Notes under the pieces: generated by a model
Seen by the model: the letters and a program-made list of their open reading frames with translations, nothing else
Databases searched by the model: none
Told to the model about the DNA's origin: nothing
Assembly: GCF_011082085.1 (NCBI RefSeq)
Contig: NZ_CP041063.1
Coordinates: 4,140,001 to 4,204,000 of the forward strand
Length of the DNA: 64,000 bases
Reading direction: 5' to 3'
DNA from: Bacillus sp. Cs-700
GTDB lineage: Bacteria > Bacillota > Bacilli > Bacillales > Guptibacillaceae
In this document: piece after piece, positions 39,389 to 52,435 of the stretch
Layout of the letters: each line of letters begins with the position of its first letter
Numbering within the stretch: position 1 is the stretch's first letter
Translations under genes and position numbers: made by a program

Positions 39389-40228
39389 ATGGACACTGGG
39401 ACAGCAGCAAAACACAAAGCACAACAAGCATCAAAGGATGTAAAGCCCTGGATTAGAGGACTTGCAAGAGTGGGGTATGCAGCAAAAGGCGTTATATATT
39501 TAATTATAGGTATTCTAGCATTTCAGGCAGCGTTTGGTCCTGGAGGAAAAACAACGGACTCTAAAGGCGCTTTCGCAACGATTGCAGGCAAACCTTTTGG
39601 TGAAGCCCTGCTGTGGATTCTTATTGTAGGATTAATAGGTTATTCCGTTTGGAAAGCAATTCAGGCAATTAAAGATCCTGATAATTATGGCAATGATACG
39701 AAAGGTATTTTAATACGAACAGGATTCTTTGGCGCTGGCGTCATCCATTTATTCCTTGCGTATAACGCTGTTTCGATTATTTCGAGAGCAGGTAGTTCAT
39801 CTTCTGGTGGTAAACAATCAATGTCTGCTAAACTTTTAGGCCAACCATTTGGCCAGTGGGTTATTGGATTTATCGGCTTATGTTTTATAGGTTTTGGTGT
39901 TTATCAGGTAATCAGAGGGTATAAGAAATCATTTATGAAGCAACTAAAGCAGTATGAAATGCATAATCAAGAAGAATGGTGGGGTAAGCGAGCTGGACAA
40001 ATTGGCCTTGCAGCGCGAGGCGTTGTTTTTACTATGATGGGTGTGTTCTTTATTCAAACAGCGATTACAGCTAACCCTGATAAAACAAAAGGGCTTGATG
40101 GCGCATTGTCAGAACTAGCGAAACAACCGTACGGCGCTATTCTGCTTGGATTAGTAGCTATTGGATTTATTGCTTACGGCATCTTTATGTTCGTTAAAGG
40201 GAAGAATAGAAGAATGAATTTTTCATAA
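39389..40228 (+). CDS. DUF1206 membrane protein (three repeats)
   Basis: 279 residues from the third of three consecutive in-frame ATGs, the one best spaced from GGAAGGGG. Three internal DUF1206 repeats, each of two membrane helices, start at GLARVGYAAKGVIYLIIG, ILIRTGFFGAGVIHLFLA and GQIGLAARGVVFTMMG, so six helices in all. The family is widespread, of unknown function. A short thioredoxin-like gene follows 21 bases later and may be co-transcribed. Confidence 0.87.
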   Translation: MDTGTAAKHKAQQASKDVKPWIRGLARVGYAAKGVIYLIIGILAFQAAFGPGGKTTDSKGAFATIAGKPFGEALLWILIVGLIGYSVWKAIQAIKDPDNYGNDTKGILIRTGFFGAGVIHLFLAYNAVSIISRAGSSSSGGKQSMSAKLLGQPFGQWVIGFIGLCFIGFGVYQVIRGYKKSFMKQLKQYEMHNQEEWWGKRAGQIGLAARGVVFTMMGVFFIQTAITANPDKTKGLDGALSELAKQPYGAILLGLVAIGFIAYGIFMFVKGKNRRMNFS

Positions 40229-40249
40229 TCGCAACGATGTAAGAAGGTG

Positions 40250-40576
40250 ATGGAACTGAAAAAAGTTACACTTGAAGAAGCAAAAGAAGGAATTGAACAG
40301 AATAGCCTGTACTTTTTGTACTTATATGGTACGAATTGTTCAGTGTGTCATGCACTGTTGCCTCAAGTTGAGGATGTACTTAAGGATTTTTCACAAATTA
40401 CACGGGAAAAGCTTAATGTTCATGAAATTCCTGAAGCGGCTGGAGCTTTTTCGGTTTTTACAATACCTGTTCTTTTGCTGTATGTTAATGGAAAAGAAAG
40501 CATTAGAGAAGCCAGGTTTGTCAACATCGAATCTTTTCGTTCTTCGCTTAATCGAATTGTGACAATGATGGACTAA
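40250..40576 (+). CDS. Thioredoxin-family protein with CSVC active site
   Basis: About 108 residues. LYGTNCSVCHALLPQVEDVL matches a thioredoxin active site with CxxC (CSVC) and the cis-Pro in FTIPVLLLYVNG, so it should be redox active; small size and no signal peptide place it in the cytosol. The ribosome site AAGAAGG is only two bases from the ATG at 40250, while a CTG at 40256 has ideal spacing, so the true start is unsure. A strong terminator follows. Confidence 0.85.
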   Translation: MELKKVTLEEAKEGIEQNSLYFLYLYGTNCSVCHALLPQVEDVLKDFSQITREKLNVHEIPEAAGAFSVFTIPVLLLYVNGKESIREARFVNIESFRSSLNRIVTMMD

Positions 40577-40595
40577 AAACACTCATTTGGTGGTG

Positions 40596-40640
40596 CACCC
40601 CGAAAGTTAGAGTTAAAAACTAACTTTCGGGGTGTTTTTT
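40596..40640 (+). terminator. Terminator after the thioredoxin-like gene
   Basis: Perfect 15-bp stem CACCCCGAAAGTTAG / CTAACTTTCGGGGTG with a 9-base loop and six T. Confidence 0.9.
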
Positions 40641-40642
40641 GT

Positions 40643-42115
40643 ATGAAAAAAACATATACACTCGAATGGAAAATTCAGTATACTGAACATATCACTTTTA
40701 AAAAGGAATTATGTGACAGTAGAATGAATCACTCCAAACAATTAACTTCAACCTCTGAAACATCTCTATTTATTATTTTATTAGTATTTAGTATTCTTAC
40801 TTATATTTTCTTGTTTTTTTCAGTTATTGGAATCGTGATTATTGCACTATTATGGTTGATTTCCTTTTTTAGCCATGGCCTTTTTCTTGGTCAAATCAGA
40901 AGCAATGGAGTAAAGATAACTGACAACCAGTACCCTCAAATCAATCAAAAGGTTTATGATCTATGTAAGGAAATGAATATTTTTAAGATTCCGAGTGTCT
41001 ATGTAGTGGAATCGGCAGGGATCTTGAATGCATTTGCGACGCGGCTATTAGGTCGTAATTTTGTTGTACTCTATTCAGATATCTTTGAACTGATTGAAGA
41101 AGGTGCTGAGGATGAAGTGACGTTTATTCTTGCTCATGAGCTCGCTCATATTAAACGAAATCACATTTTAAAACAAATCCTTCTTTTACCAGGTAATGTC
41201 GTTCCTTTTCTAGGTTCAGCCTATTCTAGAGCATGTGAATATACATGTGATCGAATGGGGGCGTATTTCATTGAAAATGGAGAGTGTGCAGGGAACGGAT
41301 TAATGATTCTTGCGGTAGGCAAGCGCTTATACCAAAGTGTGAACAAAGATGCTTACATCATGCAACTCCAATCTGAGAGAAGCTTTTTTGTTTGGTTAAG
41401 TGAATTGTTGTCGACCCATCCACCACTACCTAAACGAATAGCTGCAGTAGAGACATTTATGTATATGCGGGAAGAAACGCATTTTCCTGCTCCTCGAAAG
41501 AAAATAGTCATTCTTTCACTAATCATTTTTCTTTTCTTTGTAGGTGGAGTTGGATCAGCTGTAGTTGCATCGGAAGTGATTATTCCGTCCCTTTCCTCAG
41601 TATTTGAGGAGGAAAGCGTGTTTGATGATGGGGAGGTTACCGGCATTACCCCACTTATGGAAGCCATTATGTCAGAAGATGAAGCGGAATTTCAGTCGCT
41701 GATCTCAACCGGCAATCTGGAGGCAACGGATTCTGACGGTTGGAATGCACTTCATTATGCAGCGGAATATCCGGAAGATGAAAAAATGCTTGAAACGCTC
41801 CTGGATCTTGGAATGGATCCTAATCAACATGATCATTATGGTATGACCCCGCTCATGGTTTCAAGTCAAAATGGCTTTGTTTCTAAAGTTGAGCATTTAC
41901 TTGTCGCTGGAGCAGATCCAAATCTTGAAGATCAGGAAGGGTGGACCCCACTAATTTATATCGCTTACATGGAGCCAACCAATCGTAACGATCTTTATGA
42001 AATGCTTCTTGCAGCTGGTGCAGACCCTTTCAAGGAAGATGAAGCAGGTTATACTGCAATTGACTATGCACGAGATGCGGGAAATGAAGCAGACGTTAAG
42101 TTATTATCTCAATAA
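40643..42115 (+). CDS. M48 metalloprotease fused to C-terminal ankyrin repeats
   Basis: 490 residues if started at the ATG at 40643, but that ATG directly follows a terminator and has no ribosome site. An ATG at 40724 (463 residues) is likely, though its ribosome site is also weak. Two membrane helices (about 40-80) lead into an M48 domain with the zinc motif HELAHIKRNH and the downstream Glu region ACEYTCDRMG. A third helix (about 285-310) precedes four or five ankyrin repeats (TPLMEAIMS, ALHYAAEYP, TPLMVSSQNG, TPLIYIAYM). HtpX-type topology would put the ankyrin part outside the membrane, which is unusual. Substrate unknown. Confidence 0.85.
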   Translation: MKKTYTLEWKIQYTEHITFKKELCDSRMNHSKQLTSTSETSLFIILLVFSILTYIFLFFSVIGIVIIALLWLISFFSHGLFLGQIRSNGVKITDNQYPQINQKVYDLCKEMNIFKIPSVYVVESAGILNAFATRLLGRNFVVLYSDIFELIEEGAEDEVTFILAHELAHIKRNHILKQILLLPGNVVPFLGSAYSRACEYTCDRMGAYFIENGECAGNGLMILAVGKRLYQSVNKDAYIMQLQSERSFFVWLSELLSTHPPLPKRIAAVETFMYMREETHFPAPRKKIVILSLIIFLFFVGGVGSAVVASEVIIPSLSSVFEEESVFDDGEVTGITPLMEAIMSEDEAEFQSLISTGNLEATDSDGWNALHYAAEYPEDEKMLETLLDLGMDPNQHDHYGMTPLMVSSQNGFVSKVEHLLVAGADPNLEDQEGWTPLIYIAYMEPTNRNDLYEMLLAAGADPFKEDEAGYTAIDYARDAGNEADVKLLSQ

Positions 42116-42127
42116 TGGAACAGTCAC

Positions 42128-42146
42128 AGGGTGTTGACCCTTTTTA
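42128..42146 (+). terminator. Short terminator after the M48-ankyrin gene
   Basis: AGGGT / ACCCT stem with a 4-base loop followed by TTTT. A short stem, so efficiency is doubtful. Confidence 0.5.
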
Positions 42147-42179
42147 TGAAGTGACACTAATAGGAGAGGCGGAAGTAGA

Positions 42180-42677
42180 ATGAATGATTCGCAAGTGTTA
42201 AAGCAATTTACGTTTTGGCGCTATCGTACAATTCAAGCGCTGGATGCTGTCACAGAAGAACAAGCTGATTGTCTTCCGGAAGGTTTTACGAATACGGTTC
42301 GATGGAATTTAGGACATATTCTCGTGACGGCTGAATTTGCTTTAGATCGCTTTACAGGTATGGAAAAGAGCCTGCCAGGAAATTTCTCACCATTATTTAA
42401 AGCGGGTACGCGACCTGAGCAATGGGCGGAATCACCGCCTTCACTTGCAGAAATAAAATATTACTTGTTAGAGCAAATTAACCTTATAAAGGAGTTGGAA
42501 GGTAAACTTCGCGATCCGCTTCAACATGAATTTTCAATAGGCTCTTATTTGGAACTCGAGACAATTGGAGAACTTTTATTATTTCTAATGAATCACGAGA
42601 ATCTTCATCTTGGAACAATTAGTGGCATTAAACGAGCTCAAGGCATAAAAGAACTTTGGAAAAAAGCATCTGTATGA
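42180..42677 (+). CDS. DinB-family four-helix protein
   Basis: 165 residues with the DinB/YfiT fold pattern. VRWNLGHILVTAEFALDR gives the first metal-ligand His, and FLMNHENLHLGTISGIKR gives the C-terminal H-x3-H pair. Members are metal-binding and include bacillithiol transferases; many have no known role, and despite the name most are not damage-induced. AGGAGAGG lies upstream. Single gene with its own terminator. Confidence 0.87.
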   Translation: MNDSQVLKQFTFWRYRTIQALDAVTEEQADCLPEGFTNTVRWNLGHILVTAEFALDRFTGMEKSLPGNFSPLFKAGTRPEQWAESPPSLAEIKYYLLEQINLIKELEGKLRDPLQHEFSIGSYLELETIGELLLFLMNHENLHLGTISGIKRAQGIKELWKKASV

Positions 42678-42686
42678 GTACAGTCA

Positions 42687-42715
42687 AAAACGCGTGTGAT
42701 TCACGCGTTTTTTTG
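42687..42715 (+). terminator. Terminator of the DinB-family gene
   Basis: Perfect 10-bp stem AAAACGCGTG / CACGCGTTTT with a 5-base loop followed by further T. Confidence 0.85.
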
Positions 42716-42802
42716 TTTGGTTACAAAAAACGTGTAAAAAGGCAAGCTTAGACGTTAGGTATTTGTAAATAACACAGGAATTTTAAATTTTCTAAAAAAA
42801 GG

Positions 42803-42832
42803 TTGAACACTTTCGAAAAGTTGTTATATAAT
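42803..42832 (+). promoter_or_regulatory. Sigma-A promoter of the zinc-finger / malate-synthase-like / aceA operon
   Basis: TTGAAC (42803-42808) and TATAAT (42827-42832) with an 18-base spacer. A TTTCGAAA palindrome lies between the boxes and could be an operator half, but this is weak. The leader to 42881 is short. Confidence 0.65.
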
Positions 42833-42880
42833 ACTAACAAATAAAACAAATTGTATTATAACAGATGGAGGGGGTTTAAA

Positions 42881-43027
42881 ATGGATTGCTACACTTGTTA
42901 TGGAAATGGTGAACTTGAATGTCCGCACTGTCATGGGAAAGAAAGAAAAAATGAAGGTTGTCACCACTGTGAAGGAGAAGGATGCGTTGGATGTCACCGT
43001 TGTAACAGTAGCGGTAGGCTAGAATAG
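42881..43027 (+). CDS. 48-residue DnaJ-type zinc-finger protein
   Basis: ATG at 42881 after GGAGGGGG, stop TAG at 43025-43027. It is packed with Cys-x2-Cys units: CYTCYGNGELECPHCHGKE, then GCHHCEGEGCVGCHRCNSS. This is the DnaJ/anti-TRAP type of zinc fold (CxxCxGxG), with about five CxxC pairs in 48 residues. It is first in an operon with the malate-synthase-like gene (11 bases later) and isocitrate lyase. A protein-binding, chaperone-like or regulatory role for the operon is conceivable, by analogy with anti-TRAP. I know of no described homologue tied to the glyoxylate shunt. Confidence 0.8.
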   Translation: MDCYTCYGNGELECPHCHGKERKNEGCHHCEGEGCVGCHRCNSSGRLE

Positions 43028-43038
43028 GAGGGAAAGCT

Positions 43039-44067
43039 GTGCTTGATGGAATTGTTGAAAGCGCTAACGTTCACGGAAGTGACTTACTAACAAATGAAGC
43101 GATGATGTTTCTACAGAAGCTTCATCGTCGCTTTCATCAAGATCTACATCAGTTAGAAGAACAGCAAAATCGCACATCGAATGGTCAACTTCTAATGGAA
43201 ACAAAGGATATCAGAGAAGCTAGTTGGGAAGTAAAGGCTGTTCGTAAAGACCTTCAAGAGAGACGCGTCGTTCTCAAGAATACGGCTTCTCCATTAGAGT
43301 CGGTACCTCAAAAATCTGGGGCTAATCTTTTTATAGCTGATTATTTTGCTGAATCGCTTTCTTTCACTGATCGTTTGATCGCACAAGAAAATCTGAAGTT
43401 GTTTATTCAAAAGAATTTTTTTCACACGGTCCAAAAACCAATTGCCGTAATGATTACACCTTCTGACTGGAGAAGGAAAGATACGATTAATGGTTTGCAA
43501 ATGTCAGCTAGTCTAGTAGATTTTGGTCTTTATGTTTTTCATCATACTGAAACTTTAAAAAGAAATGGTTCAGCTCCATACCTTTGCTTAAAAGGGCTAG
43601 AGACTTATGAGGAGGCGAAGTGGTGGAATAACGTTCTTACTTATTTAGAAAGAGAAATGAATTTGAAGGAAGGCACAATGAAAGCAACAATCACGATCAC
43701 AATGGAAAATGTTCATCAAACAGACGAAATGCTTTATGAACTCCGTAACCATTGTGCGGGAATTCACTTGTTAGAAGAAAACAGGGGGATAACGGACGTA
43801 GCAAGGTATGTTATTAGTATTGGACACAAGCGAAAAACCCACGTCATTAGTGAGGGTAGTGAAAAGAAAAGACAGGCGGATCTTTTCGAAATACTCACGC
43901 GAGAAGCGGTAGAAGGATTTGATGGTAAATGCGTCACAGACGCTAGTTTGATACAGATGATAAAAGGCATTTGGAATCATTATATGCCTGAACCAAATCA
44001 AATGTGGAAAAAACGACATGAATATTTAAGTATATTAGCTGATTTGAATCAAACAAAGGTTGTCTAA
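43039..44067 (+). CDS. Shortened malate-synthase-like protein lacking catalytic motifs
   Basis: 342 residues from a GTG with TAGGAGGG upstream. It aligns along its length with the first two thirds of malate synthase A (about 530 residues): ETKDIREASWEVKAVRKDLQERRV, LVDFGLYVFHHTETLKRNGSAPYLCLKGLETYEEAKWWNNV in two pieces, TMKATITITMENVHQTDEMLYELRNH and NHYMPEPNQMWKKR. Active-site segments are altered or missing: ADFEDS reads ADYFAES, GRWDY is gone, the AHPGL segment is changed and the C-terminal domain with the catalytic Asp is absent. The frame is intact, so it looks retained as a non-catalytic relative. Alignment is by eye and memory. Confidence 0.75.
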   Translation: MLDGIVESANVHGSDLLTNEAMMFLQKLHRRFHQDLHQLEEQQNRTSNGQLLMETKDIREASWEVKAVRKDLQERRVVLKNTASPLESVPQKSGANLFIADYFAESLSFTDRLIAQENLKLFIQKNFFHTVQKPIAVMITPSDWRRKDTINGLQMSASLVDFGLYVFHHTETLKRNGSAPYLCLKGLETYEEAKWWNNVLTYLEREMNLKEGTMKATITITMENVHQTDEMLYELRNHCAGIHLLEENRGITDVARYVISIGHKRKTHVISEGSEKKRQADLFEILTREAVEGFDGKCVTDASLIQMIKGIWNHYMPEPNQMWKKRHEYLSILADLNQTKVV

Positions 44068-44093
44068 CGTAAAAAACTTAGGGGGAATTAATT

Positions 44094-45374
44094 ATGACAA
44101 AGCAAACGGCAGCATCACTTCAAGAAAATTGGAAGCAAGAACGTTTTAAAGGAATCGAACGTCCATATTCACCTGAGGAAGTGTTGAGGTTGCAGGGATC
44201 CATTCAAATTGAGTACACCCTTGCAAAGAGAGGGTCAGAAAGGTTATGGAAGCTCGTTAACGAAGAGGATTTTGTTAACGCGCTAGGTGCTCTTACTGGT
44301 AACCAGGCAGTTCAGCAGGTGAAGGCTGGCTTAAAAGCCATATACTTAAGCGGTTGGCAAGTAGCCGCAGATGCGAATGTATCAGGTCAAATGTATCCTG
44401 ACCAAAGTTTGTATCCTGTAAACAGCGTACCACAAGTTGTAAAACGAATTAATCAAGCGCTCCAACGAGCGGATCAAATTGAACATTCAGAGGGTATTCA
44501 TGATCGAGATTGGTTTGTGCCAATTGTGGCTGATGCTGAAGCCGGTTTTGGTGGGGCGCTAAATGTTTTTGAACTTATGAAGTCCATGATTGAAGCAGGT
44601 GCAGCTGCTGTCCACTTTGAGGATCAACTTTCTTCAGAGAAGAAATGTGGTCACCTTGGAGGAAAGGTTCTTCTTCCAACACAGCAGGCCGTGAAAAATT
44701 TAATTTCAGCACGTTTAGCAGCAGATGTGATGGGCGTACCCACGTTAATCATTGCGCGGACGGATGCGAATGCAGCTAACTTAATTACGAGCGATGTTGA
44801 TAAATATGATGGTGAATTTTTAACAGGTGAACGCACTCCTGAAGGCTTTTTCTACACGAAACCAGGTCTTGACCAGGCGATTGCAAGAGGCCTTGCTTAT
44901 GCGCCGTACGCTGATCTTATCTGGTGTGAAACGTCTGAACCTAATTTGGAAGAAGCTCAGAAATTCGCAAATGCTATACATGAGCGTTTCCCTGGGAAAT
45001 TGCTAGCTTACAACTGTTCGCCTTCTTTTAACTGGAAAAAGAAGTTGGATGATGAAACGATCGCTAAATTCCAACGCGAATTAGGTAAGATGGGCTATAA
45101 GTTCCAATTTGTTACACTTGCTGGTTTCCATGCGCTCAATCACAGCATGTTCGAACTTGCACGAGACTATAAGGATAATGGAATGGCAGCTTACTCAAGA
45201 CTTCAGCAAGCAGAATTTGCTAGTGAGGCAGATGGTTACTCTGCTACAAGACACCAGCGTGAGGTTGGAACAGGTTACTTTGATACTGTATCACAGGTTA
45301 TTACAGGAGGAACATCTTCTACGACTGCTTTAAAAGGTTCAACAGAAGAAGAGCAGTTTACTTCAACGAAATAA
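44094..45374 (+). CDS. aceA: Isocitrate lyase
   Basis: Splits isocitrate into glyoxylate and succinate, the first step of the glyoxylate shunt. 426 residues, the typical prokaryotic length. The catalytic [11 protein letters not shown] loop (Cys near 185), the metal-binding [19 protein letters not shown] and the substrate-binding [13 protein letters not shown] are all intact. AGGGGGA lies before the ATG. Third gene of the operon. A functional malate synthase, needed to use the glyoxylate, is not evident in this window. Confidence 0.96.
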
Positions 45375-45377
45375 GAA

Positions 45378-45406
45378 AAAAACCGGCTGAAATTCAGCCG
45401 GTTTTT
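45378..45406 (+). terminator. Terminator of the aceA operon
   Basis: AAAACCGGCTGAA / TTCAGCCGGTTTT stem with a T-run, right after the stop codon. Confidence 0.88.
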
Positions 45407-45540
45407 GTGTGGCATGCGCTTAAATAGAGAAAGCGGATGAGAAAGAGTACTAGAAAACGGAAGGATAATGAGTGAAAAACACTTATTTCCGCGATAGTTC
45501 CAAGAATTCCGCGAAATTAGTTTTGGATCTCTCAGGGACG

Positions 45541-46027
45541 GCTTCCGCTTTTCATGTCTAGCTACGACTCGCAGAAACTGCGATATTTCGCTCTTTCACC
45601 AGAACACAAAGGGCGTGTTCTAGTTCAAGCGCTCCAATATCTCCGTTTCTAAACGCTCGTCTCCGCTTTTCATGTCTAGCTGCGCGGGCCAAATCCTCCG
45701 GCTGTTTCGCCCTTTCGATTGAGACAAAAAGCGTCTCATTCGAAAGGGCTCCAACATCCTGCGGATTTAGGCAGGCCCGCTCCGCTTTTCTTGTCTAGCT
45801 ACGACTCGCAGAAACTGCGATATTTCGCTCTTTCACCAGAACACAAAGGGCGTGTTCTAATTCAAGCGCTCCAATATCTCCGTTTCTAAACGCTCGTCTC
45901 CGCTTTTCATGTCTAGCTGCAGCGCCCAGCCTCTCGATCGCTTCACCATTTCATCCAAACACAAAGACCGTGTTCAAATGAAATGGCTCCAGTGCCTGTC
46001 GAGGCTTAACGGGCGCTTCCGTTTTTC
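45541..46027 (-). repeat. Palindromic repeat cluster C (four units plus a partial)
   Basis: Minus-strand orientation. Units of about 118 bases lie at roughly 45909-46027, 45790-45908, 45672-45789 and 45554-45671, with a partial start at 45541-45553. The first begins right after the selenoprotein-gene stop codon. The second and fourth units are nearly identical to each other. The third has a distinct stem set (GCGGGCC / GGCCCGC, inner GAGACGCTTTTTGTCTC) but the same architecture. The 45407-45540 stretch before the cluster shows only loosely related GCGGAA fragments. Confidence 0.85.
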
Positions 46028-46028
46028 G

Positions 46029-46766
46029 TTATTTAAACTTAATTCCTGATTCTTCTACGTTTCCGCCTTCTTTGGCTTCGACTAGGGTGTCGAGGGCTTT
46101 GTTTAGGACTTGTTTGTGTTGTTCTTTGTTGTTAGGTTGTCCTACGGCGCTGCCGAATGGGAAGCGGTTATATAGGGAGCGAGGTACGTTAACTTGTTCG
46201 CTGATTTCTTTAGACATTGTTAATGTGATTGTTGGAATGCCGTTTTCTTCAAGTACGCGTGCGACCAGACCGGCCGACTGTTGACAGACTGGTCAGGAAG
46301 GCACCAACAAAGCGAAGTCTACGTTTTCTTTAAGTAATTTTTGCGCCACCTCTTGAGCTGTCACATTTTTTAGTGGGTGAGGTGTTGGGATATATCCCAT
46401 AAAGCTATAGTGCGTTTCGGCAAGTTCACCGATACGTCCTTCTTCTTGAAGTTCTTTCATGACATCAAGAGGGAAAAGGACGTTTGCATCTTGCCTCGCA
46501 TTTGTTTGATCATAGTGCTCATGTGATATAGAAAGATCTTTTAATGAAGTTGAAACAGGAATCTCACGATAGGATGGGTCACCAAGTCCAAAGTTATCAT
46601 TAAACGGTGTTTGTCCTTTTACATAAAAGCCACCAGTTGAGATTAAAGCACCTTTGGCATTACTTAAGTCTTTATTAAACGGTGTAAAGGGGCTCGTTTC
46701 ATTCTTTTCGTAACGAAAAGAGGGTACCCAATTTTGTTGAACTGCTTGTTCGACTTTTTCAATCAT
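46029..46766 (-). CDS. GrdB-related selenoprotein (in-frame TGA read as selenocysteine)
   Basis: A single frame of 245 residues is interrupted only by TGA at 46293-46295 (residue 158). Before it: SPFTPFNKDLSNAKGALIST, GDPSYREIP, ISHEHYDQ, VLFPLD and HYSFMGYIPT, all typical of the glycine/sarcosine/betaine reductase selenoprotein B-related family. Around it: LLVPS-U-PVCQQSAGLVAR, where homologues have Cys or Sec in a (C/U)PVC motif; after it the family sequence continues. A hairpin follows the TGA. AAGGAGG lies seven bases before the ATG. A thiol/selenol redox role is likely; the substrate is unknown. The alternative, a Cys-to-stop pseudogene, is less likely given the intact downstream frame. 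Confidence 0.82.
46263..46294 (-). other. SECIS-like hairpin following the UGA codon
   Basis: On the minus strand, GACCAG (starting at the GA of the TGA) pairs perfectly with CTGGTC (46268-46263). CTG/CGG continue the stem after a U-U mismatch, leaving a loop of about 12 bases. Bacterial SECIS elements lie directly after the UGA, with the apical loop about 15-25 bases on. The fit is by eye. Confidence 0.5.
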
Positions 46767-46913
46767 ATATTTTCCTCCTTCATATAAAATTTATGGTACC
46801 TGTTTGTTTTAGCATGTATACAAAAAAAACAAAAGTAAAACGTCCTGACCAGCATAAACGGCTTCCTTATGAAATAGGATGAATAGTAAAAGAGCAAGGA
46901 GGGACAGGCCGCT

Positions 46914-46946
46914 ATGATAAAGAGAAGAAACGCCTTAGTCAAATGA
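46914..46946 (+). CDS. Possible 10-residue leader peptide coupled to the next gene
   Basis: The only strong ribosome site here (AAGGAGGGA, about 46897-46904) points to an ATG at 46914 that opens a 10-codon frame (MIKRRNALVK). Its TGA overlaps the ATG of the membrane-protein frame as ATGA, a typical coupling arrangement. Alternatively one base was lost in the start region of a longer gene. Confidence 0.35.
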   Translation: MIKRRNALVK

Positions 46947-47146
46947 TCATTCGCTTCTTCACTTTCTTAATCGGATTTGGCCTCTCCGTTGCGGGCGGTG
47001 TTACGTTAATTCTTCAACTAAATTTAATTATTATTGGACATAGCTTGTTTGAATATTTTGCGTATATTTCACAAACAACGGAACTTTATTTATTTGTGTC
47101 GGGGGTTATCGTCGTTTGGTTTAGTGTTTACTGGCCGAGGTTGTAG
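46943..47146 (+). CDS. Small membrane protein (67 aa)
   Basis: Two predicted membrane helices (about 3-28 and 45-64) separated by IIGHSLFEYFAYISQTTELY. The start ATG at 46943 has no ribosome site of its own and overlaps the stop of a 10-codon frame at 46914. Family not recognised. It lies alone between the selenoprotein and the Gly/Tyr/Pro-rich protein genes. Confidence 0.6.
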   Translation: MIIRFFTFLIGFGLSVAGGVTLILQLNLIIIGHSLFEYFAYISQTTELYLFVSGVIVVWFSVYWPRL

Positions 47147-47256
47147 CTCTTAAGAATTCGAATATCTCCGCTAATGCCCCTTCCCGAATAAGAAACCTCT
47201 CATACCCTATACTGTAGGCAACCATCATGATAGCCAACAGGAAAGGGAGGAGACGT

Positions 47257-47568
47257 ATGGACAATTATCTCCCCTCACAGGGGAATTTCTTTCAATATCC
47301 AGAAACAAGAGTGACTCATGAAATGAGACAATATGCTTACCAGCGGCCATATCCCTTCATTGGTGGTTTTGCAGGAGGACTCGCTGGAGGACTTGCAGGA
47401 GGTTTATTAGGTGCTTTTCTAATTCCAGGATTATATGGTGGTGGATATGGCTATCCTCCGCCGCGACCAGGATATGGTTATCCAGGTCCTGGCTATGGCG
47501 GTTATCCGGGATATCCCGGAAATCCTGGAGGATACTCTCCTTATGGATATGGACCATACCGATCATAA
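47257..47568 (+). CDS. Gly/Tyr/Pro-rich small protein
   Basis: 103 residues from the ATG at 47257, placed by GGGAGGAG. The N-terminal 40 residues are hydrophilic. They precede a glycine-zipper-like hydrophobic segment (GGFAGGLAGGLAGGLLGAFL) and a C-terminal GYGYP/GYPG-rich tail with about 15 Tyr. Such tails occur in spore coat and surface proteins of Bacillaceae. No signal peptide. A spore-surface or membrane-anchored role is only suggested by composition. Confidence 0.7.
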   Translation: MDNYLPSQGNFFQYPETRVTHEMRQYAYQRPYPFIGGFAGGLAGGLAGGLLGAFLIPGLYGGGYGYPPPRPGYGYPGPGYGGYPGYPGNPGGYSPYGYGPYRS

Positions 47569-47575
47569 TCGTAAT

Positions 47576-47603
47576 AAAAAGCAAAGGACTTCCTTTGCTT
47601 TTT
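47576..47603 (+). terminator. Bidirectional terminator before the SOD gene
   Basis: AAAAAGCAAAGGA / TCCTTTGCTTTTT stem with a very short loop, between convergent genes. Confidence 0.8.
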
Positions 47604-47614
47604 ATTTTGTCAAT

Positions 47615-48469
47615 TTAAAAAGGTTTCCATGTTAATTGACGAGCTTTCGCGAATCGCTTGTTTACTTCATTCCAATTAACAATACTCCACCAGTTATCAA
47701 TGTATTGCTTTCGTTTATTTTCGTACTGTAAATAATAAGCATGCTCCCATACGTCAATGGCAAGGAGGGGAACGATATCCCATTGGCTCAAGTTTTGATG
47801 TTTCTCTGCCTGAAGAATTTCAAGTCTTCTTGATACAGGTGACCAAACTAAGATTGCCCAGCCGGAACCTTCTACTTTATTTGCAGCATTCGTAAACTGT
47901 TGCTTAAATTGATTAAAGGAGCCAAAACTCTTTTGAATTTCAGATAGGAGTTCACTATCCGGTTTTCCACCTTTAGGACTCATAACACGCCAAAATAAGG
48001 TGTGAAGATAATGACCCGCTCCGTTGAAAGCTAATTCACGTTCCCAATGCTTAATGAGGTCAAAGTCATTGTTCTTTCTAGCTTCCTGTAAGGCAAGTTC
48101 CGCTTTGTTTAATCCATCAACATAGCTTTTGTGGTGAATATCATGGTGTAGCTCCATTATCCTTGCACTAATTGCTGGTTCAAGTGCATTGTACTTGTAT
48201 GGCAATGGAGGTAGTGTATGTTCTCCGATTGGAACGGAGGTCGTATTTTCTTGCAAGTTTCGCCATTGATCATATAAGTTTTGAGCTACTTCATACCATG
48301 CCTTTTCTTGGTCACCATCAAAACGCTCTTCTGAACGTTGCATGTCGTCTAACCACTTTTCTGTTTGACGAAGTAAGGGGGATTTCAATTGATCATGAGC
48401 TTTACTAGCTAAGACTCGATCTCTTAGTAGATATCCCCATTCAAGAAGTTTATCTGACAATTCTTTCAT
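47615..48469 (-). CDS. Superoxide dismutase (Fe/Mn family) with N-terminal extension
   Basis: Converts superoxide to hydrogen peroxide and oxygen. 284 residues: a helical N-terminal extension of about 85 residues (LLEWGYLLRDRVLASKAHDQL, RSEERFDGDQEKAWYEVAQNL) precedes a normal Fe/Mn SOD domain. Metal ligands are present in MELHHDIHHKSYVDGLN, NGAGHYLHTLFWRVMSP and AIDVWEHAYYLQY. The length matches B. subtilis SodF-type proteins (about 280). No export signal. Metal preference cannot be told. Confidence 0.92.
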   Translation of the reverse strand: MKELSDKLLEWGYLLRDRVLASKAHDQLKSPLLRQTEKWLDDMQRSEERFDGDQEKAWYEVAQNLYDQWRNLQENTTSVPIGEHTLPPLPYKYNALEPAISARIMELHHDIHHKSYVDGLNKAELALQEARKNNDFDLIKHWERELAFNGAGHYLHTLFWRVMSPKGGKPDSELLSEIQKSFGSFNQFKQQFTNAANKVEGSGWAILVWSPVSRRLEILQAEKHQNLSQWDIVPLLAIDVWEHAYYLQYENKRKQYIDNWWSIVNWNEVNKRFAKARQLTWKPF

Positions 48470-48604
48470 CCCCTCAATTCTTATTTAGACGTTATTACTA
48501 TATGAGTCGTGTTACTAAATTGTTTCAATCTCTTAATAAATGTTTTTAATATGAAACATTTGGGTAACCCCTCTTTATGGAGTTTTACGTTAAGGGGGAT
48601 TATT

Positions 48605-51331
48605 ATGGGGAAAAAAATGAACGAAGAACCACATACAGGGAAAAAAGAAGGGTTAAGGAAAAAGAAGCGTTTTGCTCGAAATGTATTATTAACAGCAGCT
48701 TTTTTAATGGTGTTTGTCTTAACTTTTGGGGGTTACCAAACGTATGCGTACATTAACGAAGCACCAACGCTTGAAGGAAATAAATTAAGCTTACCGCAAT
48801 CTTCTACTTTATTTGATGCTGAAGGAAACAAAATAACTGACATCGTCGGGAAAGAACATCGGAAGGTTGTTTCATTTGATGAAATTCCTGAACATGTCGT
48901 GAATGCTTTTATTGCAGTTGAAGATGTAAGGTATTGGGATCACAACGGTGTTGATATTAAACGAATTGGTGGAGCCGTTGTCGCAAATATCCAAGATGGG
49001 TTTGGGGCAGAAGGAGCAAGTACGATTACACAACAGGTCGTTAAAAATATGCTTCTTGAACCTGAAAAGACCGTAAAACGTAAAGTACAGGAAGCTTACC
49101 TTGCAATGGAATTAGAAAAGCAGTATTCCAAAGAAGAAATTTTAGAAATGTATTTAAATAAAATTTATTTTGGTCAGGGAGCCTATGGCGTTGCAACGGC
49201 AGCTGAGACATATTTTAATAAGTCACTTGAAGAGTTAACAACGGCTGAAGCTGCTTTATTAGCGGGACTTCCACAGCGTCCGTCTGGATATGATCCATAT
49301 AAACATCCGGACATCGCAACTGATCGTCGGGCCACGGTACTAAGCTTAATGGAGCAACATGGGTTTATTTCTGTTCAAGAACGTGAAGAGGCGGCTTCTG
49401 TCGCTATTGAAGACACAATTGTAGAGAAGAAAAATCAGTCTACAACGAACGATGCTTTTATTGATCAAGTGATCGATGATTTAGAGAAAGCAGGTATCCC
49501 TGAAGATGCTCTTTATTCAGGAGGATTAGAAATTCATACAACGTTAGACGCTCAAGCACAGGAAATTGTCGACGAGTCGCTTACAACAAATCAAGTAGTT
49601 GAATACCCCGATGAGGAATTTAGAGCGGGTATTTCTCTTGTTGATACTCAGTCTGGTGCTATTCGTGCCATAGGTGGCAATCGTCAAACCGGGGAAGACG
49701 ACGTGCAAAAAGGGTTTAATTATGCAACGCAATTAGAACGTTCACCAGGTTCTACGATCAAGCCAATTCTTGATTATGCACCAGGTATAGAAAAACTTAA
49801 ATGGTCAACAAATCAACAGTTTATCGATGAAGAACTTGAATTGAATGGAAAAGAATTTAGTAATTGGAATGACGAGTTTCAAGGCAGTGTTTCAATTCGA
49901 GAAGCACTACAATGGTCTTATAATATTCCTGCTATTAAAGCATTTATGGAAGTTGGAGGAGAAGAAGCGCAAAGCTTTGCTGAGAAACTTGGCATTTCAA
50001 TTGAAGAAACATATCCGGCCTATGCAATCGGTGGCTTTGCGAATGGAATCTCACCTTTACAGCTTTCAGGAGCGTATGCGGCGTTTGGTTCTGGCGGAAC
50101 TTTTCACGAACCTTATAGTGTAGAGAAAGTAGTCTATCCAAACGGAAAAGAAATGCAACTTTCCTCAGAACCTGAAAAAGCAATGAGTGAAGGAACAGCT
50201 TATATGATTACAGATATGTTACGAACCGTCGTTAAAGAAGGGACGGGCATGCAGGCAGCTGTCAAAGGGTTAGATATAGCCGGAAAGACGGGAACAACGA
50301 GTCTTGAAGAAGGCATTCATGGAGATGGTGTATCAGACGCATGGTTCTCTGGATATACAACAAACTACACTGCAGCAGTTTGGACCGGATACGATAAAAC
50401 CACTCAAAATGCTTACATTCATAAAGAAGATGATGACATTGCAAAATTGTTATTCCAACATGTAATGAGTGAAGTATCAAAAGGAAAAGATACGCCAGAT
50501 TTTGAACAGCCTGATTCAGTTGAAGAGATTGAAATTGATAAAACATCTGGACTACGTGCAAATAATGCAACGCCTTCATCAAATATTATTAAAGAACTTT
50601 ATTTTAAAGGAGAAGAGCCGAAAAAAGCTCCTTTGCCTAAAAAGAAAGAACCATTAAATGATAGTGAAAATGATCAAACCGATAAGAAACGCGAGACCGA
50701 AAAAACTGCAGATAACGCTGCAAAAGAAAAAAAGCAACCTGAGAAAAAAGTAGAAGAAAAGCCACAGCCAAAACCAAATAATTCTGTAAAGGAAAAAGAA
50801 AAGGAAGAGGAAAAGCAAAAACCTAAGAAACAGAAAGAGCCGGAAGTAAAACAAGAGGAACAAAATAAACCAGAAGAAAAAAAGGAAGAACAGAATAAAC
50901 CAGAAGAGCCATCAACCGATCCAGTAGAAAGTTCAGAGTCCGATAACCCTGGAAATGCTGATGGTGAGAGTACCGAAGAAAACGGGACGACACCAGATCC
51001 AAATAATAGTGAAACAGGTAATGGAGACTCAGGTAATGAAGAAACGAGTGAAGATGAAACTGGTACCGAAGAAAATGGTGACAACTCAGGAAACGCTGAT
51101 CAGTCTGACGATACGGGAGGAGGTACGACTGGCAGTAACTCCTCATCAGGTACAAATGATGACAGCGGAAGTAGTGAAGAAGGCGAGGAGTCAGAACCTG
51201 TGGAAAGTGAAGAAGCAAGTGAACCATCAGAAAGTCCAGAAAATAAGCCTTCTGAAGAAGAGACTTCCTCTTCTCAGAAGACCAACGATTCTACTGTAGA
51301 AGAAAAAAAGAAAGAAAATCCAACTGAATAA
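48605..51331 (+). CDS. Class A penicillin-binding protein (PBP1A type) with long acidic C-terminal tail
   Basis: 908 residues from the ATG at 48605 with AAGGGGGATT upstream. A basic cytoplasmic start and one membrane helix (about 22-45) precede a GT51 glycosyltransferase domain (AVEDVRYWDHNGVDIKRIGG, GASTITQQVVKN, LEMYLNKIYFGQGAYGV). A transpeptidase domain follows with SPGSTIKP (active Ser about 382), WSYN and KTGTT (about 560). From about residue 675 the chain is low complexity: a Lys/Glu/Pro part, then a Ser/Gly/Asp/Glu part, about 230 residues in all. It polymerises and cross-links peptidoglycan outside the membrane. Confidence 0.93.
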   Translation: MGKKMNEEPHTGKKEGLRKKKRFARNVLLTAAFLMVFVLTFGGYQTYAYINEAPTLEGNKLSLPQSSTLFDAEGNKITDIVGKEHRKVVSFDEIPEHVVNAFIAVEDVRYWDHNGVDIKRIGGAVVANIQDGFGAEGASTITQQVVKNMLLEPEKTVKRKVQEAYLAMELEKQYSKEEILEMYLNKIYFGQGAYGVATAAETYFNKSLEELTTAEAALLAGLPQRPSGYDPYKHPDIATDRRATVLSLMEQHGFISVQEREEAASVAIEDTIVEKKNQSTTNDAFIDQVIDDLEKAGIPEDALYSGGLEIHTTLDAQAQEIVDESLTTNQVVEYPDEEFRAGISLVDTQSGAIRAIGGNRQTGEDDVQKGFNYATQLERSPGSTIKPILDYAPGIEKLKWSTNQQFIDEELELNGKEFSNWNDEFQGSVSIREALQWSYNIPAIKAFMEVGGEEAQSFAEKLGISIEETYPAYAIGGFANGISPLQLSGAYAAFGSGGTFHEPYSVEKVVYPNGKEMQLSSEPEKAMSEGTAYMITDMLRTVVKEGTGMQAAVKGLDIAGKTGTTSLEEGIHGDGVSDAWFSGYTTNYTAAVWTGYDKTTQNAYIHKEDDDIAKLLFQHVMSEVSKGKDTPDFEQPDSVEEIEIDKTSGLRANNATPSSNIIKELYFKGEEPKKAPLPKKKEPLNDSENDQTDKKRETEKTADNAAKEKKQPEKKVEEKPQPKPNNSVKEKEKEEEKQKPKKQKEPEVKQEEQNKPEEKKEEQNKPEEPSTDPVESSESDNPGNADGESTEENGTTPDPNNSETGNGDSGNEETSEDETGTEENGDNSGNADQSDDTGGGTTGSNSSSGTNDDSGSSEEGEESEPVESEEASEPSESPENKPSEEETSSSQKTNDSTVEEKKKENPTE

Positions 51332-51421
51332 CCTCAATTTGTGACCAATGTAACAGCCATAGAAAGTAGCCTCCATTATGATGAAGAAGGAAATAAAATT
51401 CATCAAATGGAGGTTTTTAAT

Positions 51422-52435
51422 ATGAAAGCAGCCGTTGTACATGCATTTAAAGAGCCCTTATCTGTTAAAAATGTGGACAAACCTATTATTGGTCATGGTG
51501 AAATATTAGTGCGTATTAAAGCATGTGGCGTGTGTCATACGGATTTACATGCTGCACACGGAGATTGGCCAGTAAAACCTAAACTACCGCTTATCCCTGG
51601 TCATGAAGGTGCAGGAATTATTGAGGAAATAGGAGACGGCGTAACACATTTGAAGGTAGGAGACCGCGTTGGTGTACCGTGGCTCTACTCTGCGTGTGGC
51701 CACTGTGAGTATTGCTTGACTGGACGCGAAACGCTTTGTAAAGAGCAACAAAATGCTGGCTATTCTGTAGATGGTGGCTATGCACAGTATTGCAAAGCAG
51801 ATGCTGATTACGCAGTTAAAATTCCAGATAACTTAAGCTTTGAAGAAGTAGCGCCAATCTTTTGTGCAGGAGTTACAACTTACAAAGCTCTGAAAGTGAC
51901 GGAGGCAAAGCCTGGGCAGTGGGTCGGTATTTATGGAGTTGGTGGCTTAGGACACGTTGCTGTTCAATACGCGAAAGCGATGGGACTTCACGTCGTTGCT
52001 GTTGATACGCATAATGAAAAGCTTGCTTTAGCAAAAGAACTTGGCGCAGATCTTACAGTGAATCCTCTAGAAGAAAACTCAGCAGAATTTATTCAACGAG
52101 AAATTGGAGGGGCCCATAGTACAGTTTGTACAGCTGTTTCTAAGCCCGCTTTTAGTGAAGCTTACGCAGCTGTTCGCCGAGGTGGTAGTGTCGTTGCCGT
52201 TGGATTACCACCAGAGGAGATGCCGATTCCTATTTTTGATACGGTCCTAAATGGAGTGAAAGTAATTGGTTCTATTGTTGGGACGCGTAAGGATTTAATG
52301 GAAGCTCTCCAATTTGCTGCTGAAGGAAAAGTGAAAACGATCATTGAGACTCGTCCGCTAGAAGAGATTAATCAAATTTTTGAAGAACTCGAAAATGGAG
52401 ACATTAATGGAAGAGTTGTTCTTACGTTCGAATAA
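51422..52435 (+). CDS. adhP: Zinc-dependent alcohol dehydrogenase, AdhP type
   Basis: 337 residues from the ATG at 51422 with GGAGG nine bases upstream; the frame extends 27 codons further without a ribosome site. Catalytic zinc ligands are in [11 protein letters not shown] and [14 protein letters not shown], and four structural-zinc Cys in [15 protein letters not shown]. The Rossmann motif [17 protein letters not shown] with a following Asp favours NAD. It interconverts alcohols and aldehydes in the cytosol. A bidirectional terminator separates it from gerPB. Confidence 0.94.

Follow-up and report, generated by a model that had tools for sequence, protein, structure and literature searches.

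Whether a TGA codon inside a short gene of Bacillus sp. Cs-700 ends translation or is read as selenocysteine (Sec), and what kind of protein would carry such a residue, is the question raised by this locus. The source genome is a single contig of 4,297,839 bases, of which the window (the whole stretch of DNA analysed, 64,000 nucleotides) covers positions 4140001-4204000. In the list of open reading frames (ORFs), the gene is split into a 157-aa frame (46766..46293) and a 62-aa ORF starting at 46217. A sequence-only reading had placed these two pieces in one frame across a single TGA, with the translation LLVPS-U-PVCQQSAGLVAR, and had coding continue to a normal stop at 46029. The shared frame and the translation were reproduced when the TGA was read as U, a TAA was found at that end, and homology is present both before and after the TGA. 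The joined frame (Table 1) gives a protein of 245 aa containing ALLVPS-U-PVC-QQSAGLVAR, in which U158 and C161 are the only Cys/Sec residues; they form the UxxC pair U158-P-V-C161, the redox CxxC-type motif with Sec that had been proposed.

Table 1. Features of the locus, in window coordinates
Feature	Position	Strand	Description or basis
PrdB/GrdB-related gene, predicted UxxC selenoprotein	46766..46029	-	245 codons, one in-frame TGA, TAA end
TGA read as selenocysteine, codon 158	46295-46293	-	frame continuity, recurrence in other genomes
Ribosome-binding site AGGAGG	46779-46774	-	sequence; similar in relatives
Inferred bacterial SECIS element	46251..46295	-	suppressed synonymous change, codons 158-172
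Candidate SECIS apical hairpin	46264..46282	-	loop GGCCG from 17 nt after TGA

One reading frame across the TGA

Together with 12 named loci, the protein forms a set of 13 that align over 245 gap-free columns, with the residue encoded by TGA at position 158 in all of them. Across 16 sequences, including our own, the same 157 codons precede the TGA (the start is ATG in eleven, TTG in four, and none was found in L037), and 87-88 codons lie between the TGA and the next stop. Comparison with L028 gives a pN of 0.02 before the TGA and 0.04 after it, with pS of 0.52 and 0.29, respectively. More generally, wherever a ratio is computable, non-synonymous substitutions are few relative to synonymous ones both before and after the TGA; many distant pairs are saturated, and ratios for the 14 codons that follow it are unreliable. 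Since the 13 proteins align without gaps and non-synonymous change is low on both sides, the joining of the two pieces in one frame by a TGA is not a matter of chance.

Conservation of the TGA across genomes

A full-length copy with one TGA is present in 13 of the 15 genomes of the GTDB family, our own included. The exceptions are G001, which belongs to another genus and has no copy, and G007, which retains a 33-aa remnant at the gene site (L035, L070) and has kept its sel genes. The twelve named loci comprise nine from Pseudalkalibacillus, Alkalihalobacillus, and Bacillus sp. at 79-99% identity, the closest being P. hwajinpoensis at 99%, and three from Bacillus sp. at 69%; all twelve have the TGA, and nine of them are the same records as the family genomes. 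In a sample of the order, 35 of 249 genomes match the protein, 33 of them with at least one TGA copy and two (G161 and G028) with only a stop-free copy; G205 and G219 match solely through a long GrdB-type copy.

The aligned codon is TGA, never TAA or TAG, in 47 of 48 loci, or 38 of 39 distinct loci once nine duplicate records are removed, and the single exception is the G007 remnant; these loci are the best matches of several PrdB-like clades, and the known Cys copies are not among them. Within the clade of our gene, the site is TGA in all 25 copies sampled (13 from the genus, L036 and L037, L067-L069, and L105-L111, the membership of the last group depending on a fork with support of 83/83). 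In L110, the matched stretch contains a TAG in addition to the TGA. At the level of the phylum, at least 114 of 398 sampled genomes match at 1e-10. Stop-free sequences also occur among the phylum matches listed: that of G456 is a true PrdB of the Cys form, and L133 of G598, when aligned pairwise, lacks both Cys and Sec at the site. Both lie outside our clade as far as they have been placed, G598 not being shown in the tree. Plasmid records contribute 24 matches, all below 60% identity, and four of the 10 listed are annotated as prdB. A distant relative, L040 (G131), has two TGA codons that would give U-P-I-U, the second of which is replaced by TGC in its sister L042; L040 may be a UxxU selenoprotein or reflect a sequence error.

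Selenocysteine machinery in the host and its relatives

The host was predicted to carry selA, selB, selC, and selD, and the absence of selB or selC had been named as evidence against Sec; all four genes are present. They are clustered at about 357-366 kb of the genome as tRNA-SeC (anticodon TCA), selB, a PhnD-PhnE-PhnC-like ABC transporter, selD on the opposite strand, and selA. The host selD has an in-frame TGA of its own, in GGUGCK, which we take to be the classical Sec site of that protein. Formate dehydrogenase was considered as a further user of Sec, and none of its four matched stretches in the host genome contains an in-frame stop.

In the GTDB family, selA is above the cut-off in all 15 genomes, and in the sample of the order in 116 of 249. 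Among these 249 genomes, it is above the cut-off in every one of the 33 with a TGA copy and in neither of the two with only a Cys copy (below the cut-off in G161, no match in G028), an association with a Fisher p of 6.7e-13, uncorrected for kinship. The Sec trait is not maintained by the PrdB-like protein, since G007, which has lost the gene, and G001, which has none, both still have selA.

These data bear on two simpler readings of the codon. If the TGA were a true stop, the gene would be broken or would yield only a 157-aa product, as the two pieces in the ORF list might suggest; the Pfam GRDB model itself also ends here (profile position 345 of 347), and the 87 codons downstream of the TGA, taken alone, have no Pfam match. 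We nevertheless consider this extremely improbable, given that the codons after the TGA are in frame and protein-like in all 16 sequences, that no other stop codon occupies the site in the 38 distinct loci, and that selA is present in all 33 genomes of the order sample with TGA copies. The other reading, in which the TGA is a sequencing error or is translated as another residue such as Trp, found no supporting point; an identical TGA recurs in other genomes, which also disposes of a misread TGT or TGC, the host has tRNA-SeC, and its selD has a TGA at a Sec site. Its probability is close to negligible. On the sequence evidence, the gene very probably encodes a genuine selenoprotein.

The transporter within the sel cluster occupies 360184-362585 of the genome (L090:7185-9586), between selB and selD. 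PhnDEC-like transporters are found in the sel stretches of all five genomes examined that have the clade gene or its remnant (our own, G005, G007, G145, and G063) and in none of the six others examined (G001, G136, G047, G228, G083, and G131); for some of these six, the stretch covers only part of the sel set. Its binding protein scores 186.8 against TIGR04553, a putative selenate ABC transporter family, under the cut-off of 250. The clade gene of G292 has a PhnD-like gene at a distance of about 5 kb. Judged from sequence, the PhnDEC-like transporter is a candidate selenium uptake system, and the clade gene may travel with it, possibly as a selenium-specific system.

Selection and an inferred SECIS element after the TGA

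A SECIS element within the coding region would lower synonymous change just past the TGA, and this is what is observed. Measured across 11 sequences (55 pairs) in windows of 10 codons, the synonymous difference per site has a mean of 0.64 (sd 0.13), while the windows starting at codons 158-165, with pS of 0.156-0.22, are the eight lowest of the gene. The drop, approximately fourfold, occurs only just after the TGA, with the minimum of the gene at codons 158-174.

The pairing was approached through a helix at positions 14-20/26-32, counted from the T of the TGA. In a distant clade (seven sequences, ungapped), this helix is 100% paired with one compensatory change, and 57 of 500 shuffles pair as highly; in our own clade (nine sequences), it pairs at 71% with no covariation. 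For both clades together (16 sequences), it pairs in 83.9% of 112 cells, a value reached by none of 500 shuffles, and slid versions pair at most 46.4%; most of the compensatory cells merely separate one clade from the other and thus represent few events. The bacterial SECIS model, as described in the literature, has G in the first two loop positions, 16-37 nt from the UGA (PMC13188914). Our loop GGCCG, 17 nt after the TGA, fits this geometry, and RNAalifold favours a different pairing after the TGA in our own clade. By single-sequence folding, the RNA after the TGA is no more stable than its shuffles (z of 0.59, -0.46, and -1.12), and Rfam reports no family at its gathering score in window positions 40000-52000; a simple strong hairpin after the TGA is disfavoured by this ordinary fold stability and by the silence of Rfam. 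On the pattern of substitution, we take the SECIS element itself as probably real, with the helix a candidate pairing only.

Family placement and the missing partner

The protein matches the Pfam GRDB family (PF07355) with 55.4 bits against a gathering cut-off of 22, over profile positions 208-345, ending at the Sec residue. That the PF07355 profile stops at the Sec position (46293-46295) is perhaps the result of building it from deposited proteins cut at the TGA. In NCBIfam, the best match is TIGR04483 (PrdB), over residues 27-238 at 1.8e-46, and the GrdB model TIGR01918 is narrowly missed (64.7 versus 65.45). A weak Thioredoxin_3 match lies below its cut-off (E 0.086) and is not relied on.

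The TIGR04483 match invites the view that the protein serves as PrdB in a functional D-proline reductase. It shares with PrdB (compared with the Cys form, G161/L073) a similar length, the UxxC/CxxC pair, and G46, G62-D63, D93, P99, P195-R196, and G205, which are among the positions kept in all 27 rows of a comparison from which 12 near-identical genus rows were dropped. However, it scores only 158.6 bits against the PrdB equivalog cut-off of 300, whereas the Cys copy in G161, a true PrdB of the order used as control, reaches 472.5 and stands in a proline racemase-PrdC-PrdA-PrdB operon, the racemase match being below its own equivalog cut-off. The PrdA/GrdE family (PF09338) is unmatched in all 14 genomes of the genus. 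It was found in five of 41 genomes searched, beside long GrdB-type copies in G136, G205, and G219 and beside the Cys form in G028 and G161, and these matches serve as a positive control for its absence from the genus. Moreover, the true PrdB rows form their own clade. A tree of 39 rows, mostly of the order, supports the clade of our gene (17 rows) at 100/100; a tree of 45 rows, extended to other classes of the phylum, gives 100/100 for true PrdB (18 rows) and 96/98 for the seven Bacilli rows of our clade, but only 83/83 once seven rows from beyond the class are joined to them. Several branches of this tree are long, and the program warns of false joins. The motifs differ likewise, UP[VIL]C[QN]Q[ST] in our clade, with UPVCQQS in the genus, versus (U/C)GTCHR(S/T)A in true PrdB. 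Taken together, a role in D-proline reduction is very improbable.

Two earlier assignments need adjustment here. A (C/U)PVC motif had been expected; its Sec form stands, but no Cys form was found in our clade, the Cys copies seen having CGTC and belonging to the separate true-PrdB clade. The proposed relationship to GrdB, the selenoprotein B of glycine/sarcosine/betaine reductase, also stands in that the protein is homologous to the C-terminal half of GrdB and has its Sec in a UxxC pair. It is, however, 245 aa long versus about 430, and it lacks a GrdE family match. With PF09338 unmatched in the genus and the PrdB equivalog cut-off missed, the protein is better described as a relative of the PrdB-type half of GrdB and not as part of a working glycine or proline reductase. 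That the gene encodes Sec and that its product is not a proline or glycine reductase subunit is, as one joint claim, highly probable.

Gene neighbourhood

Among the loci of the genus that were examined, the large genes closest to the selenoprotein gene encode isocitrate lyase and a homologue of superoxide dismutase, with small ORFs lying in between. A short malate synthase-like protein of 342 aa (window 43039-44067; 308-356 aa in genus loci) adjoins isocitrate lyase. Just downstream of the selenoprotein gene lies a tandem array with a unit of approximately 118 bp (window 45544-45991), whose core GAAAAGCGGA recurs at 17.9-18.3 kb of the window. No neighbour is common to all relatives examined, and no partner is shared across the clade. 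Stretches of 9.5-19.5 kb surrounding the top eight matches from outside the order (L134-L141) showed no PrdA, PrdC, or racemase, and all three are present in each of three PrdB control stretches (L142-L144). One of the eight, L141, carries a gene (L112) that the tree places outside the clade.

Neighbours of the clade gene in other classes, with each family outside the order scanned on one representative, have a redox or stress character. A PNPOx-like gene follows directly in G631 and G293 and lies further on in G292; DsbA-like (G292, G293), 4Fe-4S (G292, G631), MerR (G631), and glyoxalase-like (G631, G293) genes are nearby, as are DUF1638 and Crp-like genes in some of the three, and in G631, ArsR-like and P-type ATPase-like genes, so named from sequence, precede the clade gene. 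These neighbours could point to a role in detoxification or in handling a metal or metalloid, which would be a narrower form of the preferred reading and compatible with it. We regard this role as unlikely but worth keeping in view, given the lack of a common neighbour and the different setting of the gene in the genus, beside isocitrate lyase and the superoxide dismutase homologue.

Proposed mechanism

The best reading of the sequence data is a stand-alone UxxC selenol-thiol oxidoreductase. SelB and Sec-tRNA(Sec) would decode the UGA at position 158 as Sec under the guidance of a SECIS element within the next approximately 45 bases, as sequence and genome content suggest. The product would be a stand-alone PrdB/GrdB-type protein with U158-P-V-C161 as its redox pair. 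The selenolate of U158 would attack the substrate as a nucleophile, a U158-C161 selenylsulfide, the only possible intramolecular redox pair, would form next, and thioredoxin or small thiols would reduce it again. We favour this cycle with some confidence because U158 and C161 are the only Cys/Sec residues of the protein. Reduction of D-proline, glycine, sarcosine, or betaine is not expected since there is no pyruvoyl PrdA/GrdE subunit, and the substrate may be another small molecule or an oxidised thiol.

An AlphaFold2 model built on 13 close rows has a mean pLDDT of 57.5, and at this low confidence, it has U158 follow a strand (151-155) and precede a helix (159-174). A strand-helix junction is a usual place for such a redox motif. 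Foldseek returned no match at E 0.001 in PDB and BFVD, and a sequence search of the PDB returned nothing at E up to 1. Given the low pLDDT and the lack of a Foldseek match, no fold relative is claimed.

Relation to known selenoproteins and significance

Another PrdB-like selenoprotein group in the order is the UYICHQS clade (e.g. L079 and G083), which resembles ours in length, in its UxxC pair, and in a candidate SECIS helix at the same spacing. Of its carriers, G083 is without PF09338, whereas G136 has PF09338 beside long GrdB-type copies. Its gene in L079 has ABC transporter, rhodanese, and VTT-domain genes nearby, whereas ours stands alone. UYICHQS loci L077, L079, L084, and L087 lie near genes for an ABC transporter, a VTT-domain protein, and a CDP-alcohol phosphatidyltransferase (neighbour families were scanned in L079 and assigned by clustering in the others), a neighbourhood that resembles the E. 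coli ynj operon.

UxxC selenoproteins of the PrdB/GrdB family are well known (PMC2398784, PMC1088965, PMC13188914). PrdB-type members are among the most abundant selenoproteins in marine surveys, with 42 in the Sargasso Sea (PMC1088965) and 235 in GOS (PMC2398784), and a further study catalogues 131 proline reductase selenoproteins from 110 organisms (PMC5029168). Our protein is like the marine sequences by their description, being of PrdB/pfam07355 type with Sec in a UxxC pair; the surveys class theirs as proline reductase PrdB (PMC1088965, PMC2398784). A literature search, mostly outside subscription papers, returned no paper that sets apart an orphan PrdB-like clade without PrdA. Thus, PrdB-type UxxC selenoproteins are known, and what appears new, well supported by the sequence comparisons, is an orphan clade without a PrdA partner.

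We suggest, tentatively and at somewhat less than even confidence, that proteins with the UP[VIL]C[QN]Q[ST] motif make up a selenoenzyme family of their own, which no longer reduces amino acids, acts as a single protein with no pyruvoyl subunit, and would represent a new Sec-dependent reaction in Bacilli, which are generally aerobes. The case is a reminder of how readily Sec genes are broken in two at the TGA; it also shows that an orphan clade without what proline reductase requires can be concealed under the label "PrdB". The gene would offer a small, single-gene target in Bacilli for studying the function of a stand-alone PrdB-type selenol.
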